A DNA stretch of 35,154 nucleotides from an uncultured Opitutia bacterium (lineage in GTDB: Bacteria; Verrucomicrobiota; Verrucomicrobiia; Opitutales; Puniceicoccaceae), in contig CAJXLM010000031.1 in assembly GCA_913056175.1 (NCBI GenBank), positions 1 to 35,154 of the forward strand, read 5' to 3'. Each line of letters opens with the position of its first letter. Within the stretch, counting starts at the first letter, position 1. The notes under the pieces are model-generated. The model had not been told where the DNA came from and made no database searches. It worked only from the letters and a program-made list of their open reading frames with translations. Of the stretch, positions 299 through 33,945 are shown piece after piece. Position numbers and translations under genes: made by a program.

Positions 299-733
299 TC
301 AGGGGAGAGCGGGGAGGAGCAGGCGGAGGCCTTGGGGGGGGGGGCCGGCGAGCCACTGGGAGGTGAGGCGGTCGTCGGTGTCGAGAGTGACGGTGACCGT
401 GTATTCGGGCGGGTAGGGGAGGGTGGCGCCTTTGGGGAGGAGGTTCTGGAGGTCCTCGGGGGTGGCCGGCTGGATGAGGATCCGGCGGAGGGGCCAGCGG
501 GTTTCCTCGCGGAGGGCGAGGCGGGCGTGCTGTCGGGTGGCGGGGGGGACTCCCGGGGCGAAGGCGATCAGCTCGTAGAGTTCGGCGGCTTTTCCCGCGT
601 TGTGGAGGCGTTGGTAGGTTTCGCGGAAGGCGCGGACTTCCGGAGGTTCGGTGGGACCGCAGGCCGGGAGGGCGATGGCGAGGAGAAGGGCCCAAAGAAT
701 GGGGGGAGTAAGGCGCGGGCGGACGGTGGGCAT
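299..733 (-). CDS. Small lipoprotein of unknown function
   Basis: A 144-residue protein is predicted. The start at 733 gives an N-terminus typical of an exported lipoprotein: basic residues, a hydrophobic stretch (WALLLAIALPAC) and a lipobox LPAC ending in the Cys that would be lipidated at about residue 25. The mature part has a helical segment (VRAFRETYQRLHNAGKAAEL) followed by a proline-rich C-terminal third. No family was recognised. The reading frame stays open upstream to 967, but that extension is arginine/proline-rich without recognisable structure, so the lipobox-proximal ATG is preferred. No Shine-Dalgarno sequence precedes it; the leader is C-rich. The coding strand has a run of eleven C at 344-334 near the 3' end, encoding Gly-Pro-Pro-Pro-Gln. 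Slippage there would change only the last dozen or so residues. The gene follows the SCO1 block after a 700-base gap and is probably a separate unit. Confidence 0.65.
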   Translation of the reverse strand: MPTVRPRLTPPILWALLLAIALPACGPTEPPEVRAFRETYQRLHNAGKAAELYELIAFAPGVPPATRQHARLALREETRWPLRRILIQPATPEDLQNLLPKGATLPYPPEYTVTVTLDTDDRLTSQWLAGPPPQGLRLLLPALP

Positions 734-1432
734 GGGAGGGTGGGGCAAGAGGAGCAGTCGTGTTCTTTGGTGGACTCGTGCCATCCTTACTGGGCTCGCG
801 GGAGATCGGGGCCGTGTTGGCAGGTTCCGGGCAGGCGTGTCCGGGGAGGCGACGGATGGCTGAGGCCCATCCTGGCAGTGCGGAGTGGTAGAGAAAGGTG
901 GAAGGGATCTGGCGCTTCTTCCCGGGGGGCAGGGCGATGGGTTCCTGGGCAGAGGTTCATGATCCACGCATTGTGGAGTGGGTGGACCCTCCGGAGGTTG
1001 GGTTGGATTTATCGGCCGATCCGTGGGGAAGTCGGTTCTTGGAAGGGGGGGTGCGGGATGGCCCGTTCGGCCCGCTCCCTCCCTCGGGATCGGTGAAGAG
1101 GACGGAGGGAAGTGCCGCGGGGGCTGGCCGGGAGCCTTGCATGCGGACGTTTGGGGGGGAGGGAGAGGGGCGGGATGCTTCCCGGCGGGAAGGAGGGTGG
1201 GTCCGGAAAGAGCGGGCTTTTCCGGCGGGCGGGCGGGCGAGTGATCCCGCTCGCCCGAGGTGCCATCGCGGGCAAGGTCCTGACCGGCGTCCGGGGTGGG
1301 CGAGACTCTTTCCCGGGAAAAAGGTCGAGATGGATCGTGCTCCCCCGCGGGAGTGGGGAGGAAGCGGGACCCGGCTGTCGAGGAGCGCGAAGCCGGACGG
1401 GAGGGAGTCCGGGAGTGTGGCTGGGGAGCGCC
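734..1432. other. Gene-free gap of about 700 bases with hairpins
   Basis: No convincing gene was found on either strand; the long open frames here are GC-driven and give arginine/proline/glycine-rich translations. The plus strand is G-rich. Two inverted repeats lie near the middle: CCGGAAA/TTTCCGG at 1203-1209 and 1219-1225, and CGGGCGAG/CTCGCCCG at 1234-1241 and 1250-1257. They could end leftward transcription from the SCO1 block, but neither is followed by a U-tract. A further self-complementary TTTCCCGGGAAA lies at 1309-1320. Confidence 0.35.
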
Positions 1433-2311
1433 TCAGAGAACTTCGACGTCGAAGGAGCGGAAGTGGTCGCGGCCGTTGGCGAAAATCTGGACCCAGATGC
1501 GGAAATGGCCCGGCTTGGTGGGGTGGAAGAGGAACTCCATCTCGGCTTCCTCGGTGATTGCGGGGTCGACGGTGAGCGGATGCATGTGGGCGTAGCCCGA
1601 GAGAGTGTCTTCGAAGGCGACCAGGTGGGCGTAGGCGTTCATGGTCTTCCCCAGAGGAAGCGGTTTCCCGTCCTCGTGGCGCAGTCGCAGCTTGATCCGG
1701 TGGTCGCGATTGGCGCGCACCCGGGAGTCGAGTCCCTCCAGGGACATTTCGATGGGAAGATCGACCAACCAATTTTCCGGGTTGCGGACCCCCGTGTCGA
1801 GGAAGCCGTCCGCAATGGCGAGTTGGCGGGTGCGTTTGGGGACGAATTCGGCGAAGTAGCGGTAATCCTCGGAGCGAGGGTGGAAGCGGACCCGGTAGAG
1901 ACCGCTGTTGCCGAGGGGTTCCGGGTGGAGGTGGTGGTAGGAACCCAGTTGCCCGTCGATCAACATGAAGTGGACGCGCTTGGTATGGGTGAGAGCGAGC
2001 TCGTGGGGAAGCAGGTCCTCTCCCGAGGGATCCAGGAGGCGGAAGAGCAGTTCCATCCGACCGTCGGGGAGGCGCTCGAAGGACTCTTCCTCCAGCGCGA
2101 CCGGGAAGGGTTGCTCGGCGACATTGAGGAAGGGCACTGGCGCGACGCTGCAAAGTTCTTCCTCCCCACTGAGGGAGGCGGCATTCGGGTCGGTGTCGTA
2201 GTGGAGAAACTCGCACTGACTGACCGGGATGGAGCGCAACCCGACAAAGAGGCCGGCGAAGAGGAGAGTGAGGAGCGCGGCGGTGCCGCGTCGGCGCAGG
2301 CGGGGGCTCAT
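1433..2311 (-). CDS. Secreted histidine-rich two-repeat protein next to SCO1
   Basis: A 292-residue protein whose N-terminus (residues 9-28) is a signal peptide or membrane anchor after an arginine-rich start. The rest is predicted to be periplasmic. Two segments resemble each other. Residues 105-158 contain VHFMLIDGQLGSYHHLHP, then a YR..F strand. Residues 223-280 contain AHLVAFEDTLSGYAHMHP, then FLFHPTKPGHFRIW. The shared pattern is His, six to ten residues, Tyr-x-His-x-His-Pro, followed by a beta-strand-like tail. Clustered His pairs (126, 127, 129; 242, 244) plus Cys33 and Cys54 could bind metal; this is inference. The start codon overlaps the stop of the upstream SCO1 gene (ATGA at 2311-2308), indicating translational coupling and a shared role, probably in copper delivery or oxidase assembly. 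No named family was identified with certainty. Confidence 0.75.
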   Translation of the reverse strand: MSPRLRRRGTAALLTLLFAGLFVGLRSIPVSQCEFLHYDTDPNAASLSGEEELCSVAPVPFLNVAEQPFPVALEEESFERLPDGRMELLFRLLDPSGEDLLPHELALTHTKRVHFMLIDGQLGSYHHLHPEPLGNSGLYRVRFHPRSEDYRYFAEFVPKRTRQLAIADGFLDTGVRNPENWLVDLPIEMSLEGLDSRVRANRDHRIKLRLRHEDGKPLPLGKTMNAYAHLVAFEDTLSGYAHMHPLTVDPAITEEAEMEFLFHPTKPGHFRIWVQIFANGRDHFRSFDVEVL

Positions 2312-3153
2312 CCCTCGATCCTTTGCAGTTGTTGCAGCATGGCTTCCGGTGACCAGAGGCTGCCGTCCTCGCGGAGGACGATCCTCCCGTGGTCATCCAG
2401 GAGGAAGGCGGCCATGTTGTGGTTGAGGGTGCCGTCCTCGGCAAAGGCGCGGATGCCCACGGTGCGGAGGAGGGCGTCGACGGCGTCCGGAGGCCCGGTT
2501 AACAAGTCGAACTGTTCCCGGTCCATCCCATAGCTGTCCGCGTACTGGCGCAGGATGCCCGGGGAGTCGTACTCCGGGTCGAAGGAAACCAGGGCGAAGC
2601 GGACTCCGTCGATCCCGGCTTCCTCGACCTCGCGGCTGAGCCGGACCATCCGCTGGGAGGTGGCCGGGCACATGTTCGGCATGTTGCAGCGGGTAAAAAT
2701 GAAGGCGACGACCGTCGGTTGCTGCTTGAACTCCCGGGCGAAGACGACCTCCCCGTCCTCGTTGAACAGAGCGACCTCCGGCCAGTAGTCACCCCTCGCG
2801 AGGATCTCCCCGCGACCGCGGCCGGCAGCCTCGCGGATGAGGCCCCGGTTCGCGCGTTGCATGGCCTGCACGCGCGGGCCGTCGAGCGGGTAGATGGTGT
2901 CGAGGCGCGGGATTTCCCCGCGGCGGTTGAGGGTGCCCTGCACCTTGCGGCCCGTGTAGTCGATCCCGGCATCGCCCGGGGAGATCCGGACCCCCTCCAC
3001 GATCTCTCCGGAGGGTAGTTCCAGACGAACGGCCTGGTTTTCCTCGTCCATGGCGACCACCCGTGCCTCCACCCGCTCGATCGAGCCGGCCAGCAGGAAC
3101 GTGGGGAGGACCAGCGGGGCGAGGACAAGGAGCCAGCGAAAACCGGAGAACAT
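2308..3153 (-). CDS. SCO1/SenC-family copper chaperone
   Basis: A 281-residue protein with an N-terminal hydrophobic segment (residues 7-22, signal or anchor), an extra domain of about 80-100 residues, and a C-terminal thioredoxin-fold SCO domain (about 118-281). SCO proteins bind copper through two Cys and one His and help build the CuA centre of cytochrome c oxidase in the periplasm. The Cys pair is visible as FTRCNMPNMCP (Cys156, Cys162), a CX5C spacing instead of the commoner CXXXC. The ligand His is in TLNHNMAAF (His245). The N-terminal domain (RVEARVVAMDEENQAVRLEL, then an acidic loop) resembles small beta-barrel extensions seen on some SCO-like proteins, but was not identified. The gene is divergent from ctaA and overlaps the following histidine-rich gene by ATGA. 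No Shine-Dalgarno sequence is seen before the ATG at 3153. Confidence 0.92.
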   Translation of the reverse strand: MFSGFRWLLVLAPLVLPTFLLAGSIERVEARVVAMDEENQAVRLELPSGEIVEGVRISPGDAGIDYTGRKVQGTLNRRGEIPRLDTIYPLDGPRVQAMQRANRGLIREAAGRGRGEILARGDYWPEVALFNEDGEVVFAREFKQQPTVVAFIFTRCNMPNMCPATSQRMVRLSREVEEAGIDGVRFALVSFDPEYDSPGILRQYADSYGMDREQFDLLTGPPDAVDALLRTVGIRAFAEDGTLNHNMAAFLLDDHGRIVLREDGSLWSPEAMLQQLQRIEG

Positions 3154-4313: not shown

Positions 4314-5238
4314 AGAAGAATCCCTGAAGCCCGGACTCTCCGAGGAAGTGGCGGATCCCCCGGCAACGGCGGCGGGCGCACCTCCGCTCCCTGCGCTGCT
4401 CCTTTCCCTGACCAAGCCCCGGCTGGCCCTGCTCTCCACCCTTACCGGCGTTGCCGGTTATCTCGCGGCACCCGTCGCGGTGAGCTGGACCGCCTTTCTC
4501 GCCCTCTTTGCCGTACTCTTCCTCTCGGCCGCCGGGGCTCTCGCCCTCAACCAGTACATGGAGAGGGACGCGGACGGGAAAATGGCGCGCACCCGCGAGC
4601 GGGCTCTCCCGGCCGGACAGCTCCCGGCGCCGGCGGCCCTGGCGACCGGGCTCGGTGCCCTCGGGCTGAGCCTCCTGCTTTCCGTTGCCCTGTTTCCCTT
4701 CCTGACGACAGGTCTCGTCCTCGCGACGGTTGGCATCTACCTCCTCGTTTACACCCCGCTCAAGCAGGTCACCCCGTGGTGCACCCACCTCGGAGCGATT
4801 CCCGGCGCCCTGCCCCCGCTCATCGGCTGGTCGGCGGCGACGGGCGGGGCCGGGGGTCTCGGACTCTGGCTCTTCCTCATCGTCCTCCTCTGGCAGATGC
4901 CGCACTTCTTCGCGATCGCATGGATGTGCCGGGAGGACTACGCGGCGGGTGGGATGAAGATGTTGTCGGTGACCCACGGAGGTGGGAGTCGTCTTGTGGC
5001 CGAGAACTATCTCTATCTCGGACTCCTCTTCCCCGTATCCCTTGCCCCGGTGCTTCTCGGTCAGGCCGGATGGGTTTATGGAGCGATCGCCCTCCTTCTC
5101 AACGCGGTTTTCCTCCGGGAGGGCATTCGCTTTGCCCGCGGTGTGCGGGGGGAGGGCGGGCGGAACCGCCTCTTCACCTTCAGCTTGCTCTATTTACCCC
5201 TGCTCCTCGTGGCCCTTCTCCTGAATCGGGTCGGGTGA
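4303..5238 (+). CDS. ctaB: Protoheme IX farnesyltransferase (heme O synthase, CtaB/COX10)
   Basis: A 311-residue UbiA-superfamily prenyltransferase with about nine transmembrane helices. It attaches a farnesyl group to heme B to give heme O, the substrate of CtaA. The first Asp-rich motif is NQYMERDADGKMARTRERAL (N83, D89, D91). The second conserved region is YTPLKQVTPWCTHLGAIPGA, typical of COX10 proteins. WQMPHFFAIAWMCREDYAAG is also family-typical. The start ATG at 4303 lies inside the last codons of ctaA and is preceded by AGCAGGAAC, an acceptable ribosome-binding site. The same frame stays open further upstream, but that part overlaps ctaA and is not conserved in type. This is the only heme O synthase gene in the window; the cyo operon at 30.8 kb has none. 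Confidence 0.95.
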   Translation: MRAEEESLKPGLSEEVADPPATAAGAPPLPALLLSLTKPRLALLSTLTGVAGYLAAPVAVSWTAFLALFAVLFLSAAGALALNQYMERDADGKMARTRERALPAGQLPAPAALATGLGALGLSLLLSVALFPFLTTGLVLATVGIYLLVYTPLKQVTPWCTHLGAIPGALPPLIGWSAATGGAGGLGLWLFLIVLLWQMPHFFAIAWMCREDYAAGGMKMLSVTHGGGSRLVAENYLYLGLLFPVSLAPVLLGQAGWVYGAIALLLNAVFLREGIRFARGVRGEGGRNRLFTFSLLYLPLLLVALLLNRVG

Positions 5239-5287: not shown

Positions 5288-5707
5288 GTGAACTTCTCGC
5301 TTCCCGCGTTCAACGCCTTTCTCAACGGGACCGCCACCGTCCTCCTTACGCTCGGCTTTGTCTTCATCAAGTTCGGGCGCTGGAAGGCCCACCGCAACTC
5401 GATGGTGGGAGCGCTCGTGGTGAGCGCGTTCTTCCTCTTCTTCTACGTGCTGGACAAAATCCTGCGCCAAGGCGTGCACACCCAGTTCGGGGGCGAGGGC
5501 TTCTGGCAGGTCTTCTACTACGTGATGCTCATCAGCCACGTGATCCTGGCGATGATCATCCTGCCCCTGATCTTCCGGACCCTCTATCTCGCGGTGAAGC
5601 AGCGCTACCAGGACCACCGGCGCTGGGCCCGCTTCACCTATCCCGCGTGGTACTATGTCTCGGTGACCGGGGTGCTCGTGTACTTCTTCCTGTACCAGTG
5701 GTTCTGA
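5288..5707 (+). CDS. DUF420 membrane protein (CtaM/YozB-like)
   Basis: A 139-residue protein with four predicted membrane helices (about 13-30, 40-57, 75-97 and 118-138). Conserved-looking polar positions are KAHRNSM (about 34-40), the His-containing ISHVILAMIILP, and RRWARFTYPAWYYVSVTG near the C-terminus; these match DUF420 proteins. Members of this family (CtaM in staphylococci, YozB in Bacillus) are needed for function of certain heme-copper oxidases, but the mechanism is not settled. The start is GTG at 5288, 49 bases after ctaB, with no Shine-Dalgarno sequence. Its position closes the ctaAB assembly operon. Confidence 0.88.
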   Translation: MNFSLPAFNAFLNGTATVLLTLGFVFIKFGRWKAHRNSMVGALVVSAFFLFFYVLDKILRQGVHTQFGGEGFWQVFYYVMLISHVILAMIILPLIFRTLYLAVKQRYQDHRRWARFTYPAWYYVSVTGVLVYFFLYQWF

Positions 5708-5788: not shown

Positions 5789-5809
5789 GGTGCCGACCGC
5801 CGCGGCACC
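5789..5809. other. Seven-base-pair hairpin after the ctaAB-DUF420 operon
   Basis: GGTGCCG (5789-5795) and CGGCACC (5803-5809) pair around a seven-base loop between DUF420 and the ATPase gene. There is no T-tract after it, so it is at best a weak terminator or a leader hairpin of the ATPase mRNA. Confidence 0.2.
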
Positions 5810-5864
5810 CCTCGATCCCATCCCGTCCTTGTCGGGCGTCGCCCCGGCGTCCCATGCTCCCGCC

Positions 5865-7583
5865 ATGAACAGCGTGGAAGATCTCCGGAGGACTCTCGAA
5901 CGCCTCGACGGGAAGCCGTACCCCGCCTACAAGGACATCCGGGGGCGTTACCGGGCCGATTGGGGGGAACTGAGCGTGGACCGCGTGCAGGGGGATCCCT
6001 TCGCGTCGCCTTCCCGCCTCTCCGTGCGCCTTTCCTCGGACGGCCTCGGGCTCGACGCCAGCCTGCGGGAATCCCCCTCGCGTCGAACCGGCGCCGAGAA
6101 TTTCCTGGCGGAGACCCTCGCCCGCGGATTGGCCGGTCGCGAGGGCCGGTCCGGCTCCGGCTCCTCCGGACTCCTCCGGATCGACCGACCCGGGCAGGAG
6201 ATGTTGCGGCGCACCTGTGTGGAGATCCGTGGCCCGGTCACGATTCTCCGGTTTTCCGTCGGCCTACCCGCGCAGGGGCGACGGATCCTCGGGCGGCGGG
6301 CGGCGGGACTTCTCGCCGACGAGCTTCCCGGCGAGCTCGGCCGCCTCCTTCCCGGCCGGCTCGATCGAGCGGCGCTCCAGCGGTGGGCGGACACGGTGGA
6401 GGACGCTGACTTCCTGCGGGGGGAGCTGGCGGATCGAGGCTGGGTGGCCTTTGTGGCGGCCGGGTCGGTACTTCCCCGCCGCTCGGGCGTGGACGAGCGT
6501 CCCCTCGAGGGCGCCGTGCCCTTCCTCGCCCCCGCGGAGCTCCGCGCCGAGGTGGACCTGCCGCACGCCGGACGGGTGGCCGGGATGGCCCTGCCCGAGG
6601 GGGTGACGCTTCTTGCCGGGGGCGGCTACCACGGCAAGAGCACCCTCCTGCGGGCCCTCGAGCGGGGGGTCTACAACCATCGGCCCGGGGACGGCCGGGA
6701 GCTGGTGGTGACCCGGGCGGACGCCGTGAAGGTACGGGCGGAGGACGGGCGCGCGGTGACCGGTGTGGACCTGCGCCCCTTTATCAACGACCTGCCCGGC
6801 GGTGTCTCCACCGAGTCCTTCACGACCACGAATGCCTCCGGCTCGACCTCGCAGGCGGCGGGGATTCTCGAGGCGATGGAGGTGGGGGCTCGAGTTCTTC
6901 TCCTCGACGAGGACATTTCGGCGACCAATTTCCTCATCCGCGACGCCCGCATGCAGCGGCTCGTGGCGGAGGACCGCGAGCCGATCACCCCCCTCGTGCA
7001 GCGGGTACGCGAGCTGCACGACGCGCACGGAGTGTCCACCGTTCTCGTCCTGGGCGGATCCGGGGACTACTTTGCGGTCGCCGACCGGATCCTCGTGCTC
7101 GACGAGTACCGGGTGGACGACCGCACGGACGAGGCGCACGCCCTTGCGGCGGGGGAAGGGCCCGGGCAACCCCGGCGCCCCGCGCATCTCCCGCCGGTGG
7201 CGCGGGTGCCCGATCCGGCCTCCATTCGTCCCGAGAAAGAGAGTGGGCGGGGGCGGGCGGGTCGACCGCCCAAGCGGATCGTGCGCGGCCACGACACCCG
7301 CGGGCTGACTCTCGGCGGCGAGGAAATCGATCTCTCCCTCGTGTCCCAGCTCGTCGACCCCGCCCAAGTGCGGGCCATCGGTGGGGCGCTGGTAGCGGCG
7401 CGGGACCGCGGGATCCTGGACGGGCGGCGAACCGTGGCGGAAGCGGCCCATGCCCTCCGGGATTGGCTCGAGGAAGAGGGTCTCTCGGTCCTGCCCGGCG
7501 AGGACCTGGCCGCCTTTCGACCGCACGAGTGGGCGGCGGCCCTCAACCGTCTACGCAGCCTGCGCCTGCGGGCGGGCGCGTAG
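5865..7583 (+). CDS. Predicted ATPase of the ABC class (PF09818-like)
   Basis: A 572-residue soluble protein. The N-terminal part (residues 1-215) opens with LRRTLERLDGKPYPAYKDIR, the hallmark of the 'ABC-class ATPase' family (COG3044). The ATPase core has Walker A GGGYHGKST (252-260), a signature-like TTTNASGSTSQAAG (320-333) and Walker B VLLLDED (344-350), followed by SATNFLIRD. A switch-like VLVLGGSGDYFAVAD is at about 393-407. The C-terminal 170 residues include a basic linker (about 465-485). The function of the family is unknown. It has no membrane segments or transporter partner, so it is unlikely to be an importer subunit. The ATG at 5865 is chosen because the family motif starts at once; the frame is open 25 codons further up. 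The 3' end overlaps the convergent MFS gene by 33 bases. Confidence 0.9.
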   Translation: MNSVEDLRRTLERLDGKPYPAYKDIRGRYRADWGELSVDRVQGDPFASPSRLSVRLSSDGLGLDASLRESPSRRTGAENFLAETLARGLAGREGRSGSGSSGLLRIDRPGQEMLRRTCVEIRGPVTILRFSVGLPAQGRRILGRRAAGLLADELPGELGRLLPGRLDRAALQRWADTVEDADFLRGELADRGWVAFVAAGSVLPRRSGVDERPLEGAVPFLAPAELRAEVDLPHAGRVAGMALPEGVTLLAGGGYHGKSTLLRALERGVYNHRPGDGRELVVTRADAVKVRAEDGRAVTGVDLRPFINDLPGGVSTESFTTTNASGSTSQAAGILEAMEVGARVLLLDEDISATNFLIRDARMQRLVAEDREPITPLVQRVRELHDAHGVSTVLVLGGSGDYFAVADRILVLDEYRVDDRTDEAHALAAGEGPGQPRRPAHLPPVARVPDPASIRPEKESGRGRAGRPPKRIVRGHDTRGLTLGGEEIDLSLVSQLVDPAQVRAIGGALVAARDRGILDGRRTVAEAAHALRDWLEEEGLSVLPGEDLAAFRPHEWAAALNRLRSLRLRAGA

Positions 7584-30810: not shown

Positions 30811-31797
30811 ATGCTTGACTCCTACCTCCAGCTGGCCGTTGCGGAGACCTTTCTGCAGCCGACCGGCCCGATCGCGAGGGCGCAGCTCGATCACCTGAAT
30901 TACGTGGTGATCCTCACCTGCATCGCCATCGTTCCCGCCCTCGTGGCGCTCCCGCTCATCCTCTTCCGCTACCGCCGGAAGAAGGCGGGGGATCGCTACC
31001 GGCCCAATTGGGACTCCAACCTTGGGCTGGAAGTCGCCATGTGGGGGCTTCCCATCGTCGTGATCTTCCTCATGGCGATCAGCCTGTGGAGCATCACCCA
31101 GCGACTCGATCCGTACGAGGAGCTGGGGAAGGATCCTCTCGAGATCAAGGTGATCGGTCTCGATTGGAAGTGGGTCTTCCTCTACCCGGAGGAAAAGGTG
31201 GCTTTTGTCGACGAGCTGATCGTTCCGGTGGGTCGGCCGGTCGAGTTGGAGATGACCAGCGACACGGTCATGCAGAGCCTGCGCATCTCCGCGCTGGTCG
31301 GGCAGATCTACGCGATGCCGGCGATGACCACGAAGCTCAACTTCATCGCCTCCGACGCGGGGGAGGCCCGCGGGATGAACACCCAATTTACGGGGAGGGG
31401 GATGTGGCGGCAGAAATTTTTGGTGCACTCGGTCCCCACGGACGAGTACCAGCAGCGGATCGCGGAGGCCCGCCAGTCGCCGATCACCCTGAACGAGCAG
31501 ACCTACGCGATTCTCGCCCAGCAGGGCACCGCCGAGGAGGCGAAGACTCCCCTCGGGATTACCGTCCTCGAGGGCCCTCTCGAGACCCAGGGGACGGCTA
31601 CCGTGGTCGCCGAGCGGGATGTCCCGGTCGGCCAGGGGATCGCCATGCGCCTGCCGGAGCCCAAGATTTTTCAGCGTGTGCTCGCCCGGTACAAGACGGG
31701 CGTGCCCATGACCCCCGAGACCCAGCCGGGAAGCCCTTCCTACGACCCGGCGAAGGCCTCCCTTCCGCCGCTGACAGCTGTCCGTATGGAGATGTGA
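30811..31797 (+). CDS. cyoA: Quinol oxidase subunit II (CyoA type, no CuA site)
   Basis: A 328-residue protein with two membrane helices (about 31-52 and 74-95) and a periplasmic cupredoxin-fold domain. VIGLDWKWVFLYPEE (114-128), QIYAMPAMTTKLNFIASDAG (165-184) and TQFTGRGMWRQKF (191-203) follow CyoA of bo3 oxidases closely. The CuA ligands of cytochrome c oxidases are absent: the first His position reads TVMQSLRIS, and no Cys-Glu-x-Cys or His/Met follow. It therefore takes electrons through the quinol site of subunit I. Unlike the E. coli protein it has no N-terminal lipobox Cys. The ATG at 30811 has no Shine-Dalgarno sequence, and an in-frame stop at 30793-30795 rules out a longer protein. 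It starts the cyoABCD operon. Confidence 0.92.
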   Translation: MLDSYLQLAVAETFLQPTGPIARAQLDHLNYVVILTCIAIVPALVALPLILFRYRRKKAGDRYRPNWDSNLGLEVAMWGLPIVVIFLMAISLWSITQRLDPYEELGKDPLEIKVIGLDWKWVFLYPEEKVAFVDELIVPVGRPVELEMTSDTVMQSLRISALVGQIYAMPAMTTKLNFIASDAGEARGMNTQFTGRGMWRQKFLVHSVPTDEYQQRIAEARQSPITLNEQTYAILAQQGTAEEAKTPLGITVLEGPLETQGTATVVAERDVPVGQGIAMRLPEPKIFQRVLARYKTGVPMTPETQPGSPSYDPAKASLPPLTAVRMEM

Positions 31798-31866
31798 TCC
31801 GGCTGCCGGGATTCCGACGACCCTTCCTCACCCACTCCACCTTTCCACCCCCACCGATTCCCCGCC

Positions 31867-33945
31867 ATGCTCGCCTCTCTCTTCGGCCGACTCAACTGGG
31901 ACTCGATCATTCTCGTCAAGGAGTTCGAGGATCCCGACCTCCAGCTCCTCATCACCTCGGGTGCCGCCGCCGCCATTCCTCTCGGGGGGATCTTTCTCGT
32001 GCTCCTCCTCTGGTACCTGAAGTGGTGGAAACCTCTCCTCGGATGGCTGACGAGCGTCGACCACAAGAAGATCGGGGTGATGTACATCATCTTCTCCGTG
32101 GTCATGCTTTTCCGCGGGGTGGTGGAGGCTGTCCTCATGCGGACGAACCAGGCCGTCGCCCTGAACGGGGGCTTCCTCTCCTCGGATCACTTCAACCAGC
32201 TCTTCACCACGCACGGCACGAACATGATCTTCTTCGTGGCGATGCCGTTCCTCATCGGGCTGATCAATGTGGCCGTGCCTCTGCAGATCGGGGCGCGGGA
32301 TGTGGCCTTCCCCAAGCTGAACTCGATCAGTCTGGGCCTGACGGGGGCCGGCGGCTTCCTGATCACGATTTCCCTCCTTATTGGCCAGTTCTCGACGGGC
32401 GGCTGGACCAACTACCCCTCCTACACCGGGAAGCTGGTGAATCCGGGTCCCGGGGTGGACTACTGGATCACCGCGATCGGCCTCTCCGGGATCGGGTCGA
32501 CCCTCACCGGGGTGAATTTCGCCGTCACCATCTACAAGATGCGGACCAAGGGCATGAAATTCATGCGGATGCCGCTGTTCACGTGGACGGCCCTCGCCAC
32601 CTCGATCCTCCTCATCTTCGCGATGCCCCCGCTCACCGCGGCGTGCGTGATGCTTGGGCTCGACCGCTACCTCGATTTCCACTTCTTCACCAACGACCAG
32701 GGCGGGAACCTGATGAACTTCATCAACCTGTTCTGGATGTTCGGCCATCCGGAGGTCTACATCCTCATCCTCCCGGCTTTCGGGGTGATGTCCGAGCTGT
32801 CCTCCACCTTCGCGGCCAAGCGGCTCTACGGCTACACCTCCATCGTGGCCGCCACGATGTGCATCGCCGTCCTCGCCTTCTTCGTCTGGCTCCACCACTT
32901 CTTCACCATGGGCCAGTCCACCACGGTGAACGCGGCCTTCGGGATCGCCACCCTCCTCATCTCCATCCCCACGGGCGTGAAGATCTTCGACTGGTTGGCC
33001 ACCCTGTGGGGCGGGCGAATCCGGCTGAACACCACTCCGGTAATCTACCTCTGCGGGTTCCTCGTCCTCTTTGTCCTCGGGGGATTCAGCGGGATCATCC
33101 TCGCCAACCCGACCCTCGATTACCAGGTGCACAACAGCCTTTTCCTGGTCGCTCACTTCCACAACGTGATCATCCCGGGAACCCTCTTCGGGATTCTCGC
33201 CGGGATCCACTACTGGTTCCCGAAGATGTTCGGTTTCCGCCTCATGGAGAGTTACGGGAAGGTGACGGCGTGGCTGTGGTCGATCGGCTTTGTCATCACC
33301 TTCATGCCGCTCTACCCGCTGGGGCTGATGGGGATGACCCGCCGGACGGTCGACTACACGGACCCCGCGTACGTTCCCCTCATGCTGGTCTCCGGAGCCG
33401 GTTCCCTGCTTCTCGGGCTGGCCTTCCTCTTCCTGATCATCACTTTCTGGCGGAGCATCGTGAACCGTAAGCAGCTGGTCACCCCCATCGGAGATCCATG
33501 GGACGGCCGGACCCTCGAATGGTGGACCCCTTGCCCGGTGCCGGAGTACAACTTTGCGGTCCTGCCGGAGGTCGACTCCCGGGACGCCTTCCACACCGCC
33601 AAGGAGCGGGGCGATGCCTACGCCCCGATCGAGAAGTACGAGGACATCAAGATTCCCTCGAACACCTACTTCGGCCTGATCATCGGGATCCTCGGCTGTG
33701 GGCTGGGCTTCGGCCTGGTCTGGTACATGTGGTGGATGGCCGCGGGCAGCTTCCTCGCCGCCCTCGCCACGATCATCGTGTACGCTTTCCTTCCCGAGCG
33801 GGAGCAGGTGATTCCCGCGGAGGAAGTTCGGCGCGTGGACGAGAACTGGCGGCGCGAGGCGCGGGAGACCTACGGGGTCACTCGTGATGATGAGATCACC
33901 GAAGCCAACAAGGGCCTCGCCCGACCCGATGTGGTCCCCGGATGA
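31867..33945 (+). CDS. cyoB: Quinol oxidase subunit I (CyoB type)
   Basis: A 692-residue heme-copper oxidase catalytic subunit with about 15 membrane helices. Low-spin heme His116 is in FTTHGTNM. The binuclear centre is formed by His294 with the Tyr298 crosslink partner in FGHPEVYI and by His343/344 in WLHHFF. The heme ligands His430/432 are in VAHFHN. D-channel Asp145 (IGARDVAFP), Glu296 and K-channel Lys372 (TGVKIFDW) mark an A-type proton pump. Three quinone-site residues known from the E. coli enzyme are kept (Arg83, His108, Gln111; E. coli R71, H98, Q101); the fourth, E. coli D75, is Glu87. The C-terminal end GDPWDGRTLEW is CyoB-typical. It reduces oxygen to water while pumping protons. 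It lies 69 bases after cyoA and overlaps cyoC by four bases. Confidence 0.95.
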   Translation: MLASLFGRLNWDSIILVKEFEDPDLQLLITSGAAAAIPLGGIFLVLLLWYLKWWKPLLGWLTSVDHKKIGVMYIIFSVVMLFRGVVEAVLMRTNQAVALNGGFLSSDHFNQLFTTHGTNMIFFVAMPFLIGLINVAVPLQIGARDVAFPKLNSISLGLTGAGGFLITISLLIGQFSTGGWTNYPSYTGKLVNPGPGVDYWITAIGLSGIGSTLTGVNFAVTIYKMRTKGMKFMRMPLFTWTALATSILLIFAMPPLTAACVMLGLDRYLDFHFFTNDQGGNLMNFINLFWMFGHPEVYILILPAFGVMSELSSTFAAKRLYGYTSIVAATMCIAVLAFFVWLHHFFTMGQSTTVNAAFGIATLLISIPTGVKIFDWLATLWGGRIRLNTTPVIYLCGFLVLFVLGGFSGIILANPTLDYQVHNSLFLVAHFHNVIIPGTLFGILAGIHYWFPKMFGFRLMESYGKVTAWLWSIGFVITFMPLYPLGLMGMTRRTVDYTDPAYVPLMLVSGAGSLLLGLAFLFLIITFWRSIVNRKQLVTPIGDPWDGRTLEWWTPCPVPEYNFAVLPEVDSRDAFHTAKERGDAYAPIEKYEDIKIPSNTYFGLIIGILGCGLGFGLVWYMWWMAAGSFLAALATIIVYAFLPEREQVIPAEEVRRVDENWRREARETYGVTRDDEITEANKGLARPDVVPG

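Follow-up and report, generated by a model that had tools for sequence, protein, structure and literature searches.

The gene that lies directly downstream of SCO1 in the window (the whole 35,154-nucleotide stretch of DNA analysed) codes for a protein with two homologous histidine-bearing repeats, and among the genomes of its order this two-repeat gene co-occurs best with caa3-type CtaG, ahead of COX2 and SCO1. The protein is probably a membrane-anchored, periplasm-facing copper chaperone with two metal sites that works with SCO1 in the assembly of the caa3-type cytochrome c oxidase. Under this reading we infer that copper is bound and in what oxidation state, which way it is transferred, that CuA is served over CuB, and what the phenotype is. 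The initial annotation had proposed, more generally, a non-standard periplasmic copper-handling partner or oxidase-assembly factor. The co-occurrence with CtaG, the missing Cox11 and PCuAC and the copper contexts of the homologues support such a function, and the proposal can be narrowed: what the gene follows is the caa3-type oxidase, and not SCO1 in itself.

Features of the two-repeat gene and its neighbours, in window positions
Feature	Position	Strand	Basis
Two-repeat histidine protein	1433..2311	-	ORF from ATG, 292 aa, translation
N-terminal membrane helix, residues 3-27	2231..2305	-	AlphaFold2 (AF2) model; hydrophobic sequence
C33-x3-H37 ... C54 segment after the helix	2150..2215	-	Conservation over 81 sequences
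Repeat 1, residues 62-180, beta-sandwich	1772..2128	-	AF2; hhalign against repeat 2
Candidate metal site 1: H109, H114, H127, H129 (then P130)	1925..1987	-	Conservation
Repeat 2, residues 181-292, beta-sandwich	1436..1771	-	AF2; hhalign
Candidate metal site 2: M224, H229, H242, H244 (then P245)	1580..1642	-	Conservation
ATGA overlap, SCO1 stop and start of two-repeat gene	2308..2311	-	Sequence
SCO1/SenC protein	2308..3153	-	PF02630, E=2.2e-18; CX5C motif CNMPNMC
Heme A synthase CtaA	3270..4313	+	PF02628, 1.9e-26; divergent neighbour
Heme O synthase CtaB	4336..5238	+	TIGR01473, above its cut-off
DUF420 protein (CtaM type)	5288..5707	+	PF04238, 5.7e-40

CtaA, CtaB and a DUF420 gene, whose product is identified with CtaM in PMC9145763, lie divergently upstream, and the window therefore bears a heme-copper oxidase assembly cluster. 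The ATGA coupling of the two-repeat gene to SCO1, proposed at the outset, is present in the sequence, and the SCO1 assignment itself is confirmed by PF02630. The same 4-base overlap was found in 19 of the other 73 loci in which the two genes are linked (20 of 74 in all, with gene starts picked mechanically). Among the genes read near the two-repeat gene in the window, no efflux gene was identified. Immediately 3' of it, an ORF of 222 aa (299-967, minus strand) is without a Pfam match at E<=0.01, and a stand-alone ABC-class ATPase (5790-7583; PF09818, PF20446, MRB1590_C) adjoins the DUF420 gene. A second heme-copper oxidase is found at 30811-33945; its subunit I matches COX1 (E 9e-140), while nothing in Pfam matches its subunit II-like protein at E<=0.01, so that this enzyme may be of the quinol type, without CuA. 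In the window's own genome, another contig, C62, holds an oxidase with subunits I, II and III together with CtaG, and its subunit II has a fused cytochrome c domain and what we take, from reading the sequence, to be a CuA-type motif.

The protein gave no match to Pfam or NCBIfam at E<=1, and searches of solved structures by sequence, with the protein and with a 48-member profile, returned no relevant match; thus no known family of unrelated function was found to contain it. The profile rests on alignment A1, with 48 of 81 members (54 of 78 full-length rows were chosen and six with unclear starts then excluded). When the two halves of A1 were compared with each other, hhalign gave a probability of 98.2 (E=4e-14), against at most 5.0 in 20 column-shuffled controls. 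In the AlphaFold2 model of the whole protein (pLDDT 89.7, pTM 0.80), a membrane helix is followed by a linker of poor model quality and then by a pair of beta-sandwich domains, and repeat 1 alone (residues 60-180) reached a pLDDT of 92.2. The two repeats are homologous, beyond chance, and their symmetry is seen both in the profile and in the model. Helix 3-27 is presumed to be an anchor that leaves the repeats in the periplasm, a topology we infer.

The two His...Tyr-x-His-x-His-Pro units described by the initial annotation, SYHHLHP (residues 124-130) and GYAHMHP (residues 239-245), are indeed present, and the repeated unit is wider than described, since it includes the upstream pairs H109/H114 and M224/H229. 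Spacing is identical in both repeats: H109-x4-H114-x12-H127-x-H129-P in the first and M224-x4-H229-x12-H242-x-H244-P in the second. H114, H127, H129, M224, H229, H242 and H244 are conserved in 81 of 81 sequences and H109 in 80. As judged from this conservation, the eight residues would make two copper sites, one His4 and one Met-His3. C54 is found in 80 of the 81 sequences, and as the remaining one is truncated, all that reach the position have it; C33 is present in 64 (missing in 17) and H37 in 75.

The expected conservation of the link to SCO1 was borne out. Reading 81 of the 82 loci (the split match of genome G143 was left out), we found that in 74 of them SCO1 immediately precedes the gene in the same orientation. 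Two of the other seven loci end at a contig edge and five are unlinked (5 of 79 testable), the five genomes concerned having SCO1 elsewhere. All 74 partner SCO proteins have the CX5C motif, with Met preceding the second Cys (CxxxxMCP), and CX3C was seen in two SCO proteins that belong to a different family within the order. The idea that a CX5C SCO1 is a special partner was refuted, because five of the seven SCO proteins listed without an adjacent same-strand family member also have CX5C; one of these five, in locus L141, stands divergently beside a class-level relative of the two-repeat protein. The SCO1 of locus L144 (6841-7758) has a fused N-terminal CusF copper domain (PF11604, 7e-15), and at the corresponding place about 100 N-terminal residues of the window SCO1 are without assignment.

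We determined the distribution of these genes in a sample of 177 genomes of the order. At E<=0.01 the two-repeat family matched 83 genomes, or 82 after G025 was dropped (E=0.0097, two stops). With caa3-type CtaG (PF09678), from whose set G004 was excluded as below cut-off, both genes were present in 80 genomes and neither in 94 (phi 0.97); G037 and G042 have the family without CtaG, and only G105, 67% complete, has CtaG without the family. For COX2 the counts were 80 with both, 2 with the family only, 13 with COX2 only and 82 with neither (phi 0.84), and for SCO1, whose set retains one below-cut-off match, they were 81, 1, 24 and 71 (phi 0.75). Such counts within one order partly reflect shared descent, an effect that contrasts within families lessen and do not remove. 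Seven SCO1-bearing genomes from three families (G046 and G075; G010 and G142; G020, G054 and G137) are without COX2, CtaG and the two-repeat gene, and all four genes are present in G039, a genome from the genus of G020, G054 and G137. As these seven genomes retain SCO1 and lack the other three together, it is the oxidase, not SCO1, that the two-repeat gene accompanies. The notion that it simply follows SCO1 is thereby refuted: 24 of 105 SCO1 genomes are without it, seven of them with relatives that carry the full caa3 set.

In a scan of the phylum, 53 of 387 genomes matched the profile, 50 of them in the order and 3 in the same class, a distribution that refutes a general trait of Verrucomicrobiota. 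A wider genome scan kept 80 of 333 confirmed loci, all titled as Opitutales-type or unspecified Verrucomicrobiota, and a scan of genome contigs with the single protein gave no confirmed match. Among 174 genomes searched outside the order, four have CtaG and none of the four has the family, so that CtaG does not generally require it. Two genomes of the same class, G209 and G227 (about 0.9 Mb each), have a long CtaG open frame, of 772 and 787 aa, possibly a fusion with another membrane domain.

The usual copper carriers are largely missing from these genomes. Cox11 (PF04442) was found in 0 of the 177 genomes, the window's own included, and the two-repeat protein itself does not match PF04442. 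PCuAC (PF04314) occurs in two of the 177, both without the two-repeat gene, and hence in 0 of the 82 family genomes; YtkA (PF13115) passes its cut-off in two, both of which also have the two-repeat gene. According to PMC9145763 and PMC13344008, B. subtilis also uses caa3-type CtaG and DUF420/CtaM, and its lipoprotein CtaK (YtkA) acts with Sco on CuA in place of PCuAC. The two-repeat protein would fit the empty place of CtaK or PCuAC. A 2022 review (PMC9145763) describes assembly factors as apparently diverse, with more to be expected.

Relatives were also found outside the order. In the three relatives of the same class the repeats occupy the C-terminal end of a longer protein, and the gene of one stands divergently beside a SCO gene. 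A search of plasmids recovered relatives from several phyla, in 227 of 72,556 records, where they are annotated as hypothetical or heavy-metal-binding proteins; in some of them an HMBD domain is present or a signal peptide is not evident. Copper-type genes lie near the homologue in eight of the nine annotated plasmid loci opened, which were chosen for spread and not randomly (a tenth, from Paenibacillus, is unannotated). The neighbours are an HMA protein, a P-type ATPase and a metal-sensitive regulator in Mycolicibacterium and Rhodococcus; a CsoR-type repressor, a P-type ATPase and CopZ in Staphylococcus capitis; a P-type ATPase and a cupredoxin in Hymenobacter and Nostoc; a multicopper oxidase in Cytobacillus and Haloprofundus; and CusA/CzcA in Legionella. 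No copper-type gene was found near the homologue in the Priestia locus. Shifted control stretches from eight of the same plasmids contained copper-type genes in two cases (CusA/CzcA in Hymenobacter, a multicopper oxidase in Haloprofundus), which indicates that these plasmids are metal-rich and the neighbourhood of the homologue more so. The S. capitis protein (L250, 4929-5585) is a 218-aa hypothetical protein with both repeats, encoded after the repressor, the ATPase and CopZ. As its sequence shows no evident signal peptide, this version may be cytosolic. Relatives were found in 96 Staphylococcus plasmid records.

Thirteen outside sequences, ten from plasmids and three from the same class, were aligned, and the A1 HMM recovers all 13 at E<=2.2e-24. 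H114, H127, H129, H229, H242 and H244 are retained in 12 of them. The exception is the class-level relative L142 (8741-10114), with a CPLH...CGRC segment of metal-binding-like appearance and degenerate sites (H114 to Q, H129 to T, H242 to Q); to judge by these replacements, its product perhaps no longer binds metal. Position 224 is M in the Legionella, L141 and L143 proteins and L in the other ten, and C54 is missing from most copper-context homologues. A tree of the repeats separated nine plasmid sequences, all with L at 224, from the other 52 with support of 100/100, and placed the Legionella and the three class-level proteins with the Opitutales family; its root is a midpoint root only, and L250, L254 and L142 are long branches.

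If the protein is indeed a chaperone acting with SCO1, it would most likely collect or buffer periplasmic copper and pass it to SCO1, translated just before it, and SCO1 would in turn pass the copper to the CuA centre of subunit II. It would then replace PCuAC or CtaK, mostly missing from these genomes. The efflux operon contexts in other phyla would suit sequestration or detoxification of copper equally, with the adjacency to SCO1 merely reflecting copper-linked regulation, and homologues do stand on plasmids with CopA, CopZ, CsoR, multicopper oxidases or CusA-type pumps. We nevertheless regard that role as unlikely for the family studied here, because in the order the gene tracks the caa3 oxidase, as its phi with CtaG indicates, and is missing with it while SCO1 stays, because the genes read around it in the window include no identified efflux gene, and because the tree sets the plasmid branch apart from the Opitutales branch. 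Copper might instead be delivered on the CuB side, to the polytopic caa3-type CtaG in replacement of soluble Cox11, the closeness to SCO1 being secondary. The strongest co-occurrence is with CtaG, tentatively named as a CuB factor in PMC9145763, and none of the 177 genomes of the order has Cox11. The partner gene is SCO1, however, rather than CtaG (in the window's genome SCO1 is adjacent and CtaG lies on C62), and the four CtaG genomes outside the order do without it, which makes such a delivery rather improbable.

A protein that carries no copper, whether it belongs to the mature caa3 oxidase as an accessory subunit or uses C54 as a thiol or electron-transfer partner of SCO1, would be consistent with the membrane anchor, with the conservation of C54 (kept by all 80 sequences long enough to include it, against 17 without C33), and with CX5C in every SCO1 partner. 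We give this very little credence, as it leaves unexplained the two symmetric sets of four conserved candidate ligands each, and also the copper-context homologues, mostly without C54. Nor is the metal at all likely to be zinc, iron or nickel: His4 sets also suit zinc or iron, and superoxide reductases, which are iron proteins, occur further down the structural list, but the genomic contexts are copper-linked and no zinc or iron gene recurs among those read.

The family provides, in a large aerobic group, a concrete and testable candidate with named candidate ligands. It is possible, though we would not go so far as to call it probable, that the family is part of an unnamed superfamily of copper proteins with two HxxxxH-x12-HxHP repeats, found in an archaeon and in several phyla of bacteria, for the most part in copper-efflux settings, and that one branch, distinguished by Met among the ligands of site 2, has been taken over in Opitutales-type Verrucomicrobiota to supply copper specifically for caa3 assembly beside SCO1. 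Two homologous repeats and conserved His sets, the features that define such a superfamily, were found. If true, this would be a third solution for CuA loading, beside PCuAC and CtaK. Unannotated "hypothetical proteins" of copper operons, including those of staphylococcal plasmids, are united as one recognisable module, so that a single binding experiment would inform many annotations.

Searches of open-access paper listings showed no description of the two-repeat family. Among the closest known systems is CtaK/YtkA. Both proteins are membrane-tethered, extracytoplasmic and His/Met-bearing, and go with Sco and with an oxidase that needs caa3-type CtaG (PMC9145763 and PMC13344008). They differ in that CtaK is a lipoprotein with one repeat, whereas the two-repeat protein has a transmembrane anchor, two repeats and another ligand motif. 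The window protein has no match to PF13115, whose cut-off is 25.9 bits. At E<=1 two of 48 family members match it (best 3.5e-4, 21.6 bits), and such sub-threshold YtkA matches in several relatives suggest a hint of homology; hhalign against a seven-sequence YtkA-type alignment gave 16% for repeat 1 and 57% for repeat 2. PCuAC would likewise donate copper for CuA alongside SCO1, but PF04314 is matched neither by the window protein (E<=1) nor by the 48 members, among 25 of 27 families listed.

As to fold, the whole model retrieved generic Ig-like proteins (antibodies, transglutaminase, complement), and repeat 1 was therefore modelled alone. Foldseek gave no match for it at E<=0.001. A second look with VIA placed H. 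pylori CrdA first (9ll4, Z 8.5, rmsd 3.2 A, 95 aligned; 9ll2, Z 8.4), weakly above copper-bound FetP (Z 8.0) and unrelated folds also at 8.0, with superoxide reductases lower in the list; PCuAC and CopC were not in the structural lists, which is no evidence against either. CrdA is a beta-barrel copper protein and the best structural match for repeat 1. According to PMC9182242, it is a copper binder whose ligands are presumed to be the methionines of a Met-rich loop, and it has no histidine, so its ligands differ from those of the two-repeat protein. The plasmid-borne two-repeat proteins share the same repeats and differ in their setting, with CopA/CopZ/CsoR or a multicopper oxidase in place of oxidase assembly.
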